Assembly: GCA_947496715.1 (NCBI GenBank)
Contig: CANMDT010000001.1
Span: 30,799-94,798, forward strand
DNA length: 64,000 bases
Source: Myxococcales bacterium
GTDB taxonomy: Bacteria > Myxococcota_A > Bradymonadia > REDH01
Direction: 5' to 3'
Below the pieces are notes generated by a model that made no database searches, had not been told where the DNA came from, and worked only from the letters and a program-made list of their open reading frames with translations. This document shows, piece after piece, positions 3,932-11,792 of the stretch; position 1 is the first letter of the stretch; every line of letters begins with the position of its first letter. The position numbers and the translations under genes were made by a program.

Positions 3932-5002
3932 CTACGCGTCTTTGATGAACTCCACGATCTGACGCAGCTCGGGCTCCGCGCGCATCGCTGCATCTATGAG
4001 TCGTGGGTCGAAGGCGGAGCCGGCCTCCAGGCGGAGTTGCGACATTGCCTCCCCCCACGCCAGACGAGCGCGGTAACTCCGCGGCGCCGTCATCGCGTCC
4101 AGCGCATCGGCGATCGCTGCCACGCGGCCCTCCAGCGGAATCGCCTCTCCCTGCAATCCGTGCGGATAGCCCCCACCATCCCATCGCTCGTGGTGAGACC
4201 GCGCCATGCGCACCGCCGAGTCATCGGCGAGCGCACCGCCACGCGCGAGCAGCCTGGCCCCCGCCTCGCAGTGACCGCGCATCCGCGAGACCTCCTCCGC
4301 GGTCCAGACCCCAGCCTCCAACCGGAGCGCACCGACCATCTCGATCATCCCGATGTCGTGCCACGGTGAAGCTCTGCGAATCCCCTCAACCTCCGTCGGT
4401 GTGCAGCCTGCCGACGCAGCGATGGTGACAGCATACCGTGCGAACCGATCGCCATGCATCGAGCCGCTCTCCACGCCGCCCTCTATGCCACTGGCCACCG
4501 AGAGGGCATGCGCCTCGTAGACCGTCCGCTGCGACTCCATCGCGCTGGCCAGCAGCTCCTCCTTGTTGCGCGACGCAAACCACTGGCCCGTACCGGTCGC
4601 GCCGCCGCTCCGAAGCGCCGACCGCAGCCCGCGCATCTCCGACGACTTCCGCATCGCGATCTCCACCGTGCAGATGAGCAGAGAGGGCTCGAACGGTTTG
4701 ATGACCAAGCCGTGGATACCGCCGCGGACAAGCTGTTCCAGCACCTCCAGCTCGCTCTCCGCGGTCATCATCACTACGGGCGGCGCATCGAGATCGTCCC
4801 GCAGCGCAGCCACCAGCACATCGCCGTCTTGCCCCTTCATGCGCAGGTCGCTCACCACAACATCCAGCAGGCTCGATCCGATGAAGGCCAGCGCGCTCGC
4901 CACATCGTTGCGAACCGTCACCGCGTGACCTCGACGCCGCAACAGCAGCGCCACAAGATCTGCAACCAGCGTGTCATTATCGACGACCAGTATTCTACCC
5001 AC
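3932..5002 (-). CDS. Response regulator with C-terminal HD-GYP domain
   Basis: Receiver RILVVDNDTLVADL..VVVSDLRMKGQDG..VIKPF; HD-GYP motifs WHDIGM and HHERWDGGGYPHGL. Likely GTG start at 5002 preceded by GGGAG; the ORF track extends to 5098. Confidence 0.8.
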   Translation of the reverse strand: MGRILVVDNDTLVADLVALLLRRRGHAVTVRNDVASALAFIGSSLLDVVVSDLRMKGQDGDVLVAALRDDLDAPPVVMMTAESELEVLEQLVRGGIHGLVIKPFEPSLLICTVEIAMRKSSEMRGLRSALRSGGATGTGQWFASRNKEELLASAMESQRTVYEAHALSVASGIEGGVESGSMHGDRFARYAVTIAASAGCTPTEVEGIRRASPWHDIGMIEMVGALRLEAGVWTAEEVSRMRGHCEAGARLLARGGALADDSAVRMARSHHERWDGGGYPHGLQGEAIPLEGRVAAIADALDAMTAPRSYRARLAWGEAMSQLRLEAGSAFDPRLIDAAMRAEPELRQIVEFIKDA

Positions 5003-5149
5003 GACTGCCGCTCCCTTGCTTGCTCGACTGCCTCTCTCGCCTGACGACTCTACCACCAGTTTTCCGATCGGCAAAACGCGGAACGCGCTCGTTGACACCC
5101 GAGCTTTTTTGTCGCAAGTCGGGATCGTTACGATCTTGGGAGCCTCTTC

Positions 5150-6370
5150 ATGCTCGACACCACCTCACTCCACGCATCGATGCGGGATCTCGGTCTCGAA
5201 CCGGTGATCTGCCGCCGCGTGCTGATCGTGGACGACGAACCGGCACTCGTCGAGACCCTCGAAGGGCTCCTCGAGGACCACTTCGACGTCATCACCGCCT
5301 CCGGCGGGCGAGACGCACTCCGCCAGCTCGAGGCCGGCGATATCGTCGACGTGATCGTCACAGACCAGCGCATGCCCGGCATGCTCGGTGTCGACTTCCT
5401 CGAAGAGGCCTCTAAGCGGCTCCCCGACACCATCCGCATGGTCGTCACCGCCTACGCCGACGTCGAGCCCATCATCGACGCCATCAACCGCGGAGCCGCC
5501 TACCGCTTTCTCTCCAAGCCCTACAACGCCGATGAGCTCCGCGCCGCCATCTCAGAGGGCATGCAGCTCAAAGCGGCGCGCACCTCGCTCGGCCACCTCA
5601 TGGCCGCCCTCGAGACCCGCCGCAACGACATCGAAACCGCGCTCGATGAGCTCCGCGCCGCCCAAGACCAGCTCGTCGCCGCAGAGCGGCTCACCACCTT
5701 GGGCAAGATGACCGCCGGCATCGCGCACGACATCCGCAACCAGCTCGCGGGCATGCGTGTCATGCTCTCGCTGCTGCAAGGCTCCGGCGCAGAGTCTTTC
5801 CTCCACGAACCCACCAAGCGAGCCGTCGCCTCGCTCGACCACCTCTCCAGACTCGTCAACGAGGCACAGGAATTCGCCAGGGCCGACAGTGGCGCGCTGC
5901 AGCGCCTCCGCGTCGACCCACGCGAACTCATCGCAGACACGCTCGTCCTCTGGCGCGCCGAAAACACCGCCGCCACGGAGCTGGAGGTCGAACTCGACGA
6001 CAGCCTTACCTGGCTCACCGTCGATCCACTGCGCGTCACCCAGGGCCTCCTCGTCCTGCTCCGCAACGCAGCGCGCGCCAATCGCGACGATGCCACCGTC
6101 GCCCTCCGTGTTGCCCGCAGCGGGGCCGCGCGTCACGGCGTCCTCTTCTCCGTCATCGACCGCGGCGACGGTATGGACGCAGATACCCTGGCACGCGCCT
6201 CCGAGCCCTTCTTCTCAGCCTTCGACCCGCCATCGCTCGGGCTCGGACTCGAGGTCGCACGACTCGTCGCCACCTCGCATGCCGGCAGCCTCGAAATCAC
6301 CTCATCGCCAGGCCTCGGTACCACCGCCTCGCTCCTGCTCGCCGATGCCGACGGAGGCACACATGGCTAG
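5150..6370 (+). CDS. Receiver domain fused to histidine kinase (PhcQ/PhcR-like architecture)
   Basis: RVLIVDDEPALVETL..VIVTDQRMPG..FLSKPY, then H-box AERLTTLGKMTAGIAHDIRNQLAGM and a C-terminal HATPase DRGDGMD..GLGLGLEVARL. Confidence 0.85.
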   Translation: MLDTTSLHASMRDLGLEPVICRRVLIVDDEPALVETLEGLLEDHFDVITASGGRDALRQLEAGDIVDVIVTDQRMPGMLGVDFLEEASKRLPDTIRMVVTAYADVEPIIDAINRGAAYRFLSKPYNADELRAAISEGMQLKAARTSLGHLMAALETRRNDIETALDELRAAQDQLVAAERLTTLGKMTAGIAHDIRNQLAGMRVMLSLLQGSGAESFLHEPTKRAVASLDHLSRLVNEAQEFARADSGALQRLRVDPRELIADTLVLWRAENTAATELEVELDDSLTWLTVDPLRVTQGLLVLLRNAARANRDDATVALRVARSGAARHGVLFSVIDRGDGMDADTLARASEPFFSAFDPPSLGLGLEVARLVATSHAGSLEITSSPGLGTTASLLLADADGGTHG

Positions 6371-7538
6371 CAGCTTCGCGTCGCAGTCCGGCCTGCTCGA
6401 CCGCTTCCGCGCACCGCTCCGCGTCTGGGTATCACGCGCCCTCTCCGCCCACCTCCCCTCCCTTTCTGCAGCGCTGGGCGACGATGCCGAGGTACACGCG
6501 CTGGTCGATGGCGCGCTGCCGCCCAGCATGGGTCCCGCCGTCCTCCTCGCCGCACCCTCCGACCTCGCCCCCTCCAACGAGCCGGTCCTGCGCGAGCTCG
6601 TTCAGGCCGCCGAGCCCGGACGCCTCGTGCTCTACGGCGGCGAGCAAGACAGAGCCGTCCTCCTCACCGCCATCAACCACTGGCGCGTCTTCCGGCTCAT
6701 CCCCTCCATCACAGGGCTCCCGGCCGTCGTCGACGCCATCCAGAAGGCCCACGAGACCACCGAAATGGAGCTCGCGCTCGATTTCGGCATCCGCGACCTC
6801 GCCCAGCAGAACGAACACCTCGGACGCACCCTCGAGCGCCTGCAGCGCACCCGCGGGCAGCTCCTCCACGCAGAGCGGCTCACCACCCTCGGCCGGCTCA
6901 CCACCGGCCTCGGCCAGGCCCTCGACTCCCACCGCGTCGCCACCGACGATCTCTCTGCTGCCAGCAAGCGCATCACGCTCGACGCCGAACTCCTCGATGT
7001 CGTCGAGCGAACCCTCGAAGGCGGTCGCGCACTCGATTCGCTCCTCAGCGATCTCCTCTACTTCGCCGAAAACCGCGAGCGCCCCCTCCACCTCGCACAC
7101 CACGACGCAGACGCCATCGCCGCTGCCGCGCTCAGGCTTGCCGAGGTCGACCCCGTCTCGCGCAAGCGAAACATCTCCATCTCGCTCCGTTCCGGCAGCT
7201 TCGTCTGCGTTGACCGATACGCCATCTACCAGGTCCTCATCAACCTCCTCCGCAACGCCATGCAGGCGACCGAGGACGGCGGCACCATCGAACTCAACGC
7301 TCGCCTCATCGACGGCGAAGTTGTCTTCGAGGTTATCGACAACGGCACTGGTATGTCGCCCGACACCCAGGCCCGCCTCTTCGAACCCTTCTTCACCACC
7401 AAAGGCCGTGACGGACTGGGGCTCGGACTCCGCGTCTCGCGCCTCACAGTCGAGCGCCACGGCGGACGCATGGAGTGCCAGTCCACCCCCGGAACTGGCT
7501 CCACCTTCCGCCTCTTCCTGCCCATCAGCGCCCACTGA
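6363..7538 (+). CDS. Degenerate receiver-histidine kinase paralogue (ATPase domain intact, phospho-acceptor His absent)
   Basis: ATG at 6363 overlaps the previous stop. H-box region reads AERLTTLGRLTTGLGQALDSHRVA; HATPase motifs NLLRNAMQA, DNGTGM, GLGLGLRVSRL are intact. Confidence 0.75.
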   Translation: MASSFASQSGLLDRFRAPLRVWVSRALSAHLPSLSAALGDDAEVHALVDGALPPSMGPAVLLAAPSDLAPSNEPVLRELVQAAEPGRLVLYGGEQDRAVLLTAINHWRVFRLIPSITGLPAVVDAIQKAHETTEMELALDFGIRDLAQQNEHLGRTLERLQRTRGQLLHAERLTTLGRLTTGLGQALDSHRVATDDLSAASKRITLDAELLDVVERTLEGGRALDSLLSDLLYFAENRERPLHLAHHDADAIAAAALRLAEVDPVSRKRNISISLRSGSFVCVDRYAIYQVLINLLRNAMQATEDGGTIELNARLIDGEVVFEVIDNGTGMSPDTQARLFEPFFTTKGRDGLGLGLRVSRLTVERHGGRMECQSTPGTGSTFRLFLPISAH

Positions 7539-7625: not shown

Positions 7626-9098
7626 ATGTCCAAGAAGAAGCAATACGACGACCTCTACGGTGGCGTTGGCCGAGCGATGAACTTTCGCGCCAAGCGCGTC
7701 CTCGCCCGAGAGGTAGCCGATCTGGACGGCTTCGACCTCACCGTCGACGGCAAGCCCGCACAGGTCCACGACCTCGCCATGAGCGGTCTCTCCTTTCACA
7801 CGCCGCCCGCCGACTCCTCGGCCGTCGGAGATGCCGTCGAACTCCGCGTCTGCTTCGCCGAACAGGTCATCTTCGAGGGCGCTGCACGCGTCGCACGCAT
7901 CGAAGACCTCGGCCGCAGCCGGCGCATCGCCGTTCAGCTCCTCACAGGCTTCCTCGACCTGCCGGCCATCCGCCGGGCCGACGAAGATCGCACCCTCCAA
8001 CTGCGGCTCGGCACCGGCGCAGACAAGGTCCGAGACAAGGTCCCTGCCGACTTCCGCGAGGTCAACGAGCACGCCGCTTTTTTCCTTGCCCACCACCGCC
8101 GCCTCCTCGACGAGACCGAAAACCGCTACCGCGAGCAGGGTGCCAACGGTCGCGAACTCATCGACAGGCTCGTCCAGCAGGCCTCCGATGCCATGCGACC
8201 CGAGTGGCTCGCCATCTCGAGCCGCGCCGGCGAGATCGCCCGCCCCTACCTTGAAGACACTGAGACCCGCGCCGCGATGAAGGCCTATGTAGAGACCCTC
8301 ATCACTTCGCAGCTCCTCGATGTTCCCATCGTCTCTCGCGCCTATACCAAGCCCCTCGGCTACGCTGGCGACTACCAGGTAATGAACCTCATCTTCCGCA
8401 ACGCCTACGAAGGCCGCACGGTCTTCTCACGCGTGATCAACAAGCTCTTCGTCGAGGAGTCCATCGCCGAAGGCGCCCGCGCGAGGCTCGAACTTCTCAA
8501 GAAAATCTATGCCGACGAGCTCGACCGGCGAACCGCCCTCGGAGCCACCGAGCCCTTCCGGATCATGAGCCTCGGCTGCGGCCCCGCCAAAGAGGTCTCC
8601 GACTTCGCCGACGGCCCCGATGCCTGGCCAACCCCCATCCACTGGACCCTCCTCGACCAGGACGAGCAGGTGCTCTCGCTCGCCTACAGCGAGTCCTTCA
8701 AGCGACTCACCGCACGCCGTGATGGAAGCTCCGTCCGCTGCCTCTACATGTCCTTCCAGCAGCTCATCGCAGACCCCGAAGGCTCGTTCACCGAAGAGTC
8801 CCACGACCTCGTCTACGCCTCCGGGCTCTACGACTACCTCCGCCAAAACCGGGCGAGGGAGCTCACCCGTGCCCTCTACGACAAGACCTCTCCTGGCGGT
8901 CTCTGCATCATCGCCAATGGAGCCGCCCCCTCCAAGTCGCTCTGGCCCACAGAGTTCATCCTCGACTGGACACTCATCTACCGCACCGAGGCAGAGATGC
9001 GCGACATCGCCGCAGCACTCCCCGCTGATGCAGAGGTCGAGTTCACTGCGGAGCGCGAAGGCGCCTTCTCCTTCCTCATCGCCCGCAAGCCTGGCTAG
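7626..9098 (+). CDS. PilZ domain - class I SAM-dependent methyltransferase fusion (PhcB/EF methyltransferase-like)
   Basis: N-terminal PilZ-like RVLAR...DLAMSGLSF; C-terminal YTKPLGYAGDYQVMNLIFRNAYEG...FRIMSLGCGPAKEVSDF resembling the extracellular-factor methyltransferase family. Confidence 0.7.
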   Translation: MSKKKQYDDLYGGVGRAMNFRAKRVLAREVADLDGFDLTVDGKPAQVHDLAMSGLSFHTPPADSSAVGDAVELRVCFAEQVIFEGAARVARIEDLGRSRRIAVQLLTGFLDLPAIRRADEDRTLQLRLGTGADKVRDKVPADFREVNEHAAFFLAHHRRLLDETENRYREQGANGRELIDRLVQQASDAMRPEWLAISSRAGEIARPYLEDTETRAAMKAYVETLITSQLLDVPIVSRAYTKPLGYAGDYQVMNLIFRNAYEGRTVFSRVINKLFVEESIAEGARARLELLKKIYADELDRRTALGATEPFRIMSLGCGPAKEVSDFADGPDAWPTPIHWTLLDQDEQVLSLAYSESFKRLTARRDGSSVRCLYMSFQQLIADPEGSFTEESHDLVYASGLYDYLRQNRARELTRALYDKTSPGGLCIIANGAAPSKSLWPTEFILDWTLIYRTEAEMRDIAAALPADAEVEFTAEREGAFSFLIARKPG

Positions 9099-9101
9099 CC
9101 C

Positions 9102-11792
9102 ATGCCGCAAGCCACCGCCTCCTACCTCGTCGTCCCTGCCCTCGCGGACGCACCCCTCAGTCTCACCGACGAGGAGCAGGAGGAGTTTCGGCGTCAATCA
9201 CGGGGCATCACCAAGGCTGCACTCCAGACCGAGGCCTGGCTCGCCTTCTTCCTCATTCCCTGCTTTGGCATCCTCGATTGGGTCGTGCTGCCCGACTACT
9301 TCGGCACCTTCATGCTGCTCAGGCTCGCAGCAAGCCTCGTCTCACTCGCCACCGCCATCGCATGCCGGTCGCAGAGCGACTTCGTGCTCCGACACATCGA
9401 AACCATCTCCATCGCCTTCCACGTGAGCATCACCTCCGCCATCGCCACCATGTGCTGGTTCGATGGCGGACTCGACTCGCCCTATTACGCTGGAATGGTC
9501 CTCGTCTACCTCGGCTTCGGCCACTTCCAGCTCATGCCGCTGGCCAAGGCCGTTCTTGTCCCGGTCCTCAGCTACATCATCTACATTGCACCCGCACTCT
9601 CGGGAACGACCCACATCGCTTCGCCCGCCTCGGCCATCAACAACCAGTTCTTCCTCGTCTCCTTCGGCTTCGTAACCGTCGTCTCCTGCAACCAGAAACT
9701 CCGACTCCAGATGCGGCAGTTCCTGACCAACCGCAGCCTCGACCTCGCACGCACCGAGGCCGAGCGCGCCAACGAGAAGCTCAAGCAGCTCGACAGGATG
9801 AAGTCCCAGTTCTTCGCCAACATCACCCACGAGCTACGTACCCCGCTCACCATGATCCTCGCACCCGTCGAGTCAGCGAACGACGGCGCGCGCGGCGTTG
9901 TCCCCGCCCACCTCGCACCCACGCTCAAGGATGTCTGGCGCAACGGACTCAAGCTCCTCAAACTCATCAACGACCTCCTCGACTTCTCCAAACTCGAAGA
10001 GGGCTTCGCACGCCTCCGCATCGACGAAACAGACCTCCCCGTCTTCGTCCGACAGATCACCGGCTACGCAGCAGACATGGCCGCCAGAAAGGAGATCACC
10101 CTCTCCTTCAACATCGCAGCGGACCCCGGCACGATGCACCTCGACCATGAGAAGCTCGAGCGAATCGTCGTCAACCTCGTAGACAACGCCCTCAAGTTCA
10201 CCCCCATCGCGGGCTCCGTCGAAGTCACCATCGACTGCTCTCCCACCCACGCCTTTGTCCGCGTCAAAGACAACGGCATCGGCATCGCACCCGAAGCACT
10301 CGACCGCGTCTTCGAGCGCTTCACACAGGCGGACGGCTCCATCCATCGCCAGTTCGGTGGCACGGGAATCGGACTCGCCTTCGCCCGTGAACTCGCCCGC
10401 CTCCACGGCGGAGACATCTCCGTTACGAGCGAACCTGGCCACGGCTCCGTCTTCACACTCAGCCTCCGGCGCGGGCGTGACCACTACGACCCCAATCTCA
10501 TGGACCGGCGCAAAAATGCCGCCCCTGCCGGAGCAGCCATCCGCGGCGACGACGCCGGACCCGCAGAGTGGGCACGCCACCTCACCGAGCGTTTCGACTA
10601 CAAGTTCCAAGGCATCGACGAGGCCACCGAACGCCGTGCCGTCCCCCGCTCCGACGACGAAGGAAAAACCAGCAAGGTCCTCATCGTCGAAGACAACCCC
10701 GACATCCTGCGACTCCTTAACCTCGAACTCTCCGTCGAGCACTCCGTCTACGTCGCCAAGGATGGGCGCCAGGGCATCGAACTCGCACTTCGCGAACAGC
10801 CTGATGTCATCCTCACAGACTTCATGATGCCCGAGGTTGACGGACTCACCCTCATCCGAACCCTGCGCGCCGAGAGCCGCACCGCAGACATCCCCATCAT
10901 CATGCTCACCGCCAAAGGCGATGTAGAAGACCGCCTCGCAGCCGCAGAGGCCGGCGCAGACCTCTACCTCTCAAAGCCCTTCAGCACCCGTGAAGTCCGC
11001 GCCGCCGTCAACGCCCAGCTCAAGCGCCGCGGACGCCAGGTCGGCAACATCATCCGCGCACAGGTTCAGAGCCTCGAGCTCATCTCGGCCAGCCTCGCGC
11101 ACGAGATCCACAACCCGCTCGCCTACATCAAAAACGCCAACACCATCGTCACCGAAAACATCGAAAAACTGCTGCGCATCATCGCAGATCCGGCCCTCTC
11201 CGACGAAGAGAAAACCAAGCGTATCGAAGCAATCCGAAACAGGCTCGGCCGCTCCACCACCATCGCCGATCAGGGCGTCGAACGCATCTCCCAGATCGTC
11301 GACCTCGTCCGCCGCTACGCACGCGCCGGCTACAGCCCCGACCCCATCTCCTTCTCCATCGACGACTCCCTCCAAGACGTCCTCAGGCTCATCCACAGGC
11401 CGCACGACAGCGTCCTACTCCACGCCGAGCTCGAAGCCGGCGATGCACTCATCCGCGTCCGACCCGAAGAGCTCCATCTCGTCTGCCGCAACCTCATCCA
11501 GAACGCCGTCGAAGCCATCGGCGAACGGGGCGACGTCTGGATTGTCGCCAAACGCGAAAATGACGACATCACCATTGCCATCCGCGACAACGGACCCGGC
11601 ATCAACCGCGAGCACATGGCCCGCATCTTCACCCCCTTCTTCTCCACCAAGGAGACGGGCAAGGGCATGGGAATCGGCCTCTCCATCGCCTTCCAGATCG
11701 TCAACAATGCCGGCGGCTCCATCGAGGTCGCCAGCACCCTCGGAGAGGGAGCCACCTTCACCGTACGCATCCCGCTGATCCGTCACGCCTAG
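9102..11792 (+). CDS. Multi-TM hybrid sensor: TM region - histidine kinase - receiver - second histidine kinase
   Basis: Hydrophobic N-terminus; H-box 1 FFANITHELRTPLTMI; receiver KVLIVEDNPDILRLL..ILTDFMMPEVDG..YLSKPFS; H-box 2 SASLAHEIHNPLAYIKN; two HATPase domains. Confidence 0.85.
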   Translation: MPQATASYLVVPALADAPLSLTDEEQEEFRRQSRGITKAALQTEAWLAFFLIPCFGILDWVVLPDYFGTFMLLRLAASLVSLATAIACRSQSDFVLRHIETISIAFHVSITSAIATMCWFDGGLDSPYYAGMVLVYLGFGHFQLMPLAKAVLVPVLSYIIYIAPALSGTTHIASPASAINNQFFLVSFGFVTVVSCNQKLRLQMRQFLTNRSLDLARTEAERANEKLKQLDRMKSQFFANITHELRTPLTMILAPVESANDGARGVVPAHLAPTLKDVWRNGLKLLKLINDLLDFSKLEEGFARLRIDETDLPVFVRQITGYAADMAARKEITLSFNIAADPGTMHLDHEKLERIVVNLVDNALKFTPIAGSVEVTIDCSPTHAFVRVKDNGIGIAPEALDRVFERFTQADGSIHRQFGGTGIGLAFARELARLHGGDISVTSEPGHGSVFTLSLRRGRDHYDPNLMDRRKNAAPAGAAIRGDDAGPAEWARHLTERFDYKFQGIDEATERRAVPRSDDEGKTSKVLIVEDNPDILRLLNLELSVEHSVYVAKDGRQGIELALREQPDVILTDFMMPEVDGLTLIRTLRAESRTADIPIIMLTAKGDVEDRLAAAEAGADLYLSKPFSTREVRAAVNAQLKRRGRQVGNIIRAQVQSLELISASLAHEIHNPLAYIKNANTIVTENIEKLLRIIADPALSDEEKTKRIEAIRNRLGRSTTIADQGVERISQIVDLVRRYARAGYSPDPISFSIDDSLQDVLRLIHRPHDSVLLHAELEAGDALIRVRPEELHLVCRNLIQNAVEAIGERGDVWIVAKRENDDITIAIRDNGPGINREHMARIFTPFFSTKETGKGMGIGLSIAFQIVNNAGGSIEVASTLGEGATFTVRIPLIRHA

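Follow-up and report, generated by a model that had tools for sequence, protein, structure and literature searches.

The window analysed here is a stretch of 64,000 nucleotides, and our interest lies in a gene for a 490-residue protein and in the kinase and regulator genes that surround it. The features of this locus are as follows.

3932-5098, minus strand: divergent response regulator with an HD-GYP domain, a candidate c-di-GMP phosphodiesterase (Pfam HD_5 and Response_reg; HDIG...HHERWDGGGYPHGLQG)
5150-6370, plus strand: receiver-histidine kinase protein, RR-HK (Pfam)
6363-7538, plus strand: HATPase protein with a Pfam HATPase match only and no Pfam HisKA match (H-box region LTTGLGQALDSHR)
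7626-9098, plus strand: PilZ-methyltransferase fusion protein, 490 aa (ORF and translation, full-length relatives)
7686-7955, plus strand: PilZ domain, residues 21-110, with a six-stranded barrel at ~36-105 (AF2 domain model, Foldseek against the PDB, Pfam across the family, profile against the PDB)
7695-7709, plus strand: RxxxR motif RVLAR, R24-R28 (census of 43 relatives); the R21 codon is 7686-7688
7770-7787, plus strand: DLAMSG, residues 49-54, at the DxSxxG position, with Ser51 replaced by Ala (same census)
7959-8315, plus strand: helical linker between PilZ and methyltransferase, residues 112-230 (AF2 secondary structure)
8316-9095, plus strand: class I SAM-dependent methyltransferase domain of a PhcB-like family (invariant columns, Foldseek with a low-confidence model, tree with a Paraburkholderia methyltransferase)
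8349-8384, plus strand: methyltransferase-domain motif KPLGYAGDYQVM
8568-8594, plus strand: SAM motif SLGCGPAKE
8814-8840, plus strand: methyltransferase-domain motif YASGLYDYL
9102-11792, plus strand: membrane hybrid histidine kinase, HK-receiver-HK, with a multi-TM sensor at residues ~20-215 (Pfam, sensor homology, adjacency in relatives)

All of the motifs on which an earlier note had based its reading of a PilZ-methyltransferase fusion, namely RVLAR, DLAMSGLSF (residues 49-57), LGYAGDYQVMNLIFRNAYEG and SLGCGPAKEV, lie within the 490-residue ORF, which occurs in one copy in the source genome (a 3.56 Mb draft). Its closest relatives come from deltaproteobacterial metagenome assemblies, of which two bear the labels ErkenSummer and Ki3-D3; we found no NCBIfam family assignment for the protein. 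Taken alone it matches Pfam PilZ below the gathering score (17.4 bits versus 22.5, E=0.0058), and a phmmer search of the PDB with the single sequence as query gave no useful match. Across the family, 27 of 43 relatives matched PF07238 at E<=0.01 (the best at 5.9e-7), and L053 and L120 score over the cut-off of that model. AF2 folded residues 1-125 into a six-stranded barrel with a pLDDT of 90+ across most of residues 41-110, the top Foldseek matches of the predicted domain in the PDB included VCA0042 with c-di-GMP, MotI/DgrA, BcsA, YcgR, Alg44 and MapZ, and a profile built from 41 N-terminal domains matched PilZ proteins exclusively (14/14 PDB matches at E<=1). As the Pfam matches of the family, the predicted fold and the PDB profile agree, the N-terminal domain is a PilZ domain, and its recognition from the letters was not due to chance. 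Values of dN/dS within the genus indicate that the barrel is under purifying selection: they lie at 0.04-0.07 in five of six genome pairs, similar to the methyltransferase, the closest pair giving 0.34 on six changes in all, and the N-terminal arm that bears the arginines has no amino-acid change within the genus.

The census of ligand residues in the 43 relatives found R21 in 42 of the 42 with a residue at that position, R24, D/N49 and G54 in 43 of 43, and at position 51 Ser in 36, Ala in six and Gly in one. Since R21 and R24 are kept throughout, the usual arginine pair of the family is RxxR, and the RxxxR motif claimed earlier holds in part: RVLAR (R24-R28) is there, but most of the family has the invariant FRxxR pair (R21, R24) instead, and R24xxxR28 is nearly confined to the clade of the 490-residue protein. 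The other half of that claim, a DxSxxG match except for Ser to Ala, describes the protein accurately, as it has D49 and G54 (together with R21, R24 and R28) and Ala at residue 51. DLAMSG with Ala51 is common to all members of the genus, every one of which carries the fusion, and within the clade the replacement is limited to this genus; because the sister members, from Acidobacteriota and from genomes G130, G179 and G255 (clade support 99/94), read SMNG or SLNG, the loss of Ser51 is probably derived. Loss of the Ser does not by itself exclude ligand binding, since PixB of Myxococcus xanthus, described as having two PilZ domains with RxxxR present and Ser absent, binds c-di-GMP in vitro, although it is not known which of the two domains does so (PMC8316039). 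Binding of c-di-GMP by the 490-residue protein is, as judged from its residues, plausible, with Ala51 and the RxxR pair of most of the family counting against it; the source genome has 10 GGDEF genes and four further PilZ genes.

The C-terminal half of the protein combines the SAM motifs of class I with a K-P-x-G-Y-x-G-D motif that is invariant. Its Pfam matches are generic, with a CheR-type SAM-binding domain matched weakly in 15 of 43 members, and the full-length AF2 model, in which the methyltransferase part is of low confidence (mean pLDDT 63), returned from Foldseek class I methyltransferases only, among the matches listed. By tree and by sequence the domain is homologous to a methyltransferase on a Paraburkholderia graminis plasmid, where the order methyltransferase, sensor kinase, receiver, and receiver with an extra region follows phcBSRQ in gene order and in domain content, PhcQ being described as a receiver with an uncharacterized C-terminal part (PMC6989110). 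Our comparison with PhcB runs through this methyltransferase at the phcB position, which belongs to the only Burkholderiaceae phc-type cluster found in the plasmid collection. Its N-terminus also matches the PilZ profile of our family (4.5e-5, versus 0.054 for the best of 5,000 shuffles) and is PilZ-like with both ligand motifs lost, so the barrel can evidently persist without c-di-GMP. In Ralstonia, a phcB R22C mutation outside the methyltransferase domain is described as reducing signal output (PMC6989110), which is consistent with a regulatory N-terminus on PhcB. Residue 22 of the P. graminis protein is an Arg five residues ahead of the DxSxxG position, and R22 of Ralstonia PhcB might likewise lie inside the barrel, a placement that is only suggestive as the numbering is provisional.

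A survey of PilZ fusions in this methyltransferase family revealed that the fusion is a family trait, both in a phylum-wide sample, in which the full-length form was present in at least 42 of 284 genomes, and in Acidobacteriota, where it is rare (2 of 297 genomes by near-full-length profile match, plus a locus in G285 and a tandem form in G414). The fusion of PilZ and class I methyltransferase domains is thus real and conserved among relatives, which bears out the central claim of the earlier note. On the methyltransferase tree the PilZ label changes three times, versus 16.7 times for shuffled labels. A deep relative, L120 (4926-6638), has the order PilZ-PilZ-methyltransferase, its first PilZ domain having canonical motifs and the whole protein scoring 37 bits against Pfam. 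In L007 (by Pfam) and in L098 and L100 (by sequence) a cyclic-nucleotide-binding domain stands N-terminal to the same methyltransferase family, a likeness to the PilZ fusions in that a second-messenger-type domain occupies this position and a difference in that the domain is of the cNMP-binding type. As both kinds of fusion occur, the family has acquired second-messenger domains of more than one kind. L007 additionally carries a guanylate/adenylate cyclase in the same protein, and L008 is alike over the part seen. On a Pseudanabaena plasmid (L086, 6983-7825), a methyltransferase of the same family without PilZ has a HAMP kinase and a receiver as neighbours, with a Tn3 transposase close by, and is nested among PilZ-bearing rows in the methyltransferase tree.

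The strongest evidence is the operon context, which the earlier note had not covered. The hybrid kinase gene begins 3 bases past the methyltransferase stop, and among 42 relatives an adjacent same-strand histidine kinase gene, mostly of the HK-RR-HK build, was found in 36, an adjacent RR or RR-HK gene in 27, and at least one of the two in 38. We found no Pfam family for the transmembrane sensor of the hybrid kinase; a profile of this sensor identified the kinase of the Paraburkholderia cluster at 3.6e-23, where 2,000 shuffles reached 0.018 at best, as well as the kinase of the same sensor type that adjoins the L120 methyltransferase gene. Upstream of the fusion gene, the protein encoded at 6363-7538 is probably a degenerate receiver-HK paralogue of the adjoining RR-HK, and it may be a pseudokinase as the usual His is absent from its H-box region. 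The HD-GYP signature of the divergent gene at 3932-5098 looks intact and the gene has this position in all four genomes of the genus; we rejected HD-GYP as a general partner of the operon, a motif search having found it nearby in this genus only.

The locus therefore resembles the Ralstonia Phc system in several respects: the methyltransferase is of one family with that at the Paraburkholderia phcB position, its gene adjoins that of a multi-TM kinase with a homologous, PhcS-type sensor, receiver proteins are encoded in the operon, and the N-terminus of the methyltransferase is PilZ-like here and in Paraburkholderia. It differs in that the PilZ domain keeps ligand residues, that separate PhcS, PhcR and PhcQ are replaced by an HK-RR-HK hybrid in which kinase and receiver are joined, as if a sensor kinase and its regulator had been fused, and that a separate RR-HK precedes the methyltransferase. 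Because methyltransferase family and adjoining sensor both match the Paraburkholderia cluster, the methylated signal that the earlier note had assigned to this enzyme is plausible, the likeness to PhcB being drawn by way of P. graminis only. PhcB is described as making 3-OH MAME or 3-OH PAME, and homology and context suggest that the product of the PilZ-methyltransferase would likewise be a methyl ester.

In the mechanism that we propose, the C-terminal domain would transfer a methyl group from SAM to a small molecule, most likely to the carboxyl of a (3-hydroxy) fatty acid as in PhcB, and the resulting methyl ester would be a diffusible signal; the hybrid kinase in the membrane would sense this signal via its PhcS-type transmembrane domain and pass phosphate on, both to the receiver that it contains and to the RR-HK protein; and the PilZ domain would bind c-di-GMP and adjust methyltransferase output, so that the motile or sessile state of the cell would determine the amount of signal made. 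The ORF, the PilZ fold, the methyltransferase family, the conserved operon and the sensor homology are observed parts of this scheme, whereas we infer the substrate, the binding of c-di-GMP by a copy that lacks the Ser, and how and in which direction gating would work. The most parsimonious reading is a synthase-receptor operon of the Phc type whose synthase takes c-di-GMP as an input, and we would put the chance that the whole module works in this way (methyl-ester synthesis, sensing by the hybrid kinase, and output set by c-di-GMP) at about even. With somewhat less confidence than that, we speculate that PhcB-type synthases were ancestrally gated by c-di-GMP in cis through their own PilZ domain, and that PhcB of Burkholderiaceae kept the barrel and lost ligand binding.

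A competing explanation accepts the same Phc-like operon and holds that the PilZ domain of this genus has ceased to bind c-di-GMP and serves only as a structural or protein-docking element, e.g., for the kinases. This would accommodate the genus-wide Ala51 in a clade that otherwise reads SMNG or SLNG, the six other departures from Ser within the family, and the Paraburkholderia homologue, with its barrel retained and its ligand motifs gone; however, R21, R24 and R28 are kept and the N-terminal arm is unchanged within the genus, Ser-less PixB with its RxxxR is described as binding c-di-GMP in vitro (PMC8316039), and an HD-GYP gene adjoins the operon, and we regard such a loss of binding as a possibility with rather less than an even chance. 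We think it unlikely that the methyltransferase acts in the manner of CheR on a protein, such as a kinase or receiver of the operon, in an intracellular adaptation circuit rather than in signalling between cells. The gene is nearly always accompanied by kinases, the CheR SAM-binding domain is matched in 15 of 43 members, and a PilZ-methyltransferase pair acting in trans is known in MapZ and CheR1 of Pseudomonas aeruginosa (PDB 5xly; PMC6370697), but the CheR matches are weak and other class I methyltransferase models match as well, the enzyme belongs to a clade-level family with the methyltransferase at the Paraburkholderia phcB position, and the multi-TM sensor of the kinase suits a hydrophobic ligand. 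MapZ and CheR1 are a parallel in that a PilZ protein that responds to c-di-GMP controls a methyltransferase, a control that is predicted in the present case; MapZ works in trans on a chemoreceptor methyltransferase, whereas the PilZ domain described here is fused to a PhcB-like one.

Least probable of the explanations considered is that the product of the enzyme is a methylated membrane lipid or secondary metabolite with no part in signalling, the kinases only regulating expression of the enzyme. Some relatives of the methyltransferase stand alone or are fused to other domains, which would suit such a role, but the fixed pairing of synthase and sensor genes, which spans two phyla and recurs in a cluster of the phcBSRQ type, is better explained by the making and sensing of a signal. 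Among known systems the PilZ-methyltransferase also has a counterpart in PixB, a PilZ-PilZ-GNAT protein and thus likewise a PilZ-enzyme fusion in a myxobacterium, with RxxxR present and Ser absent; its output is an acetyltransferase, and no such signal-kinase operon is reported in the accessible part of that paper (PMC8316039).

Searches of the open-access literature, in which the four papers naming both PhcB and PilZ were covered at the level of titles and abstracts, found no prior description of the PilZ-methyltransferase/kinase arrangement; one of these papers, covered by passages as well, treats pilZ as a pilus gene. Among the papers found, none reports fatty-acid methyl ester signalling in the myxobacterial and soil bacteria concerned. 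The usual connection between quorum sensing and c-di-GMP runs via gene expression or via separate enzymes. If our reading is correct, c-di-GMP and autoinducer synthesis would be linked directly, on one polypeptide, in Myxococcota-type bacteria and Acidobacteriota, and with a c-di-GMP receptor on the synthase the choice of lifestyle would govern signal output without an intermediary. The PilZ-like N-terminus suggests a reason why a PhcB mutation outside the methyltransferase domain alters signal output, and the operon is a candidate signal/receptor pair for myxobacterial and soil bacteria.
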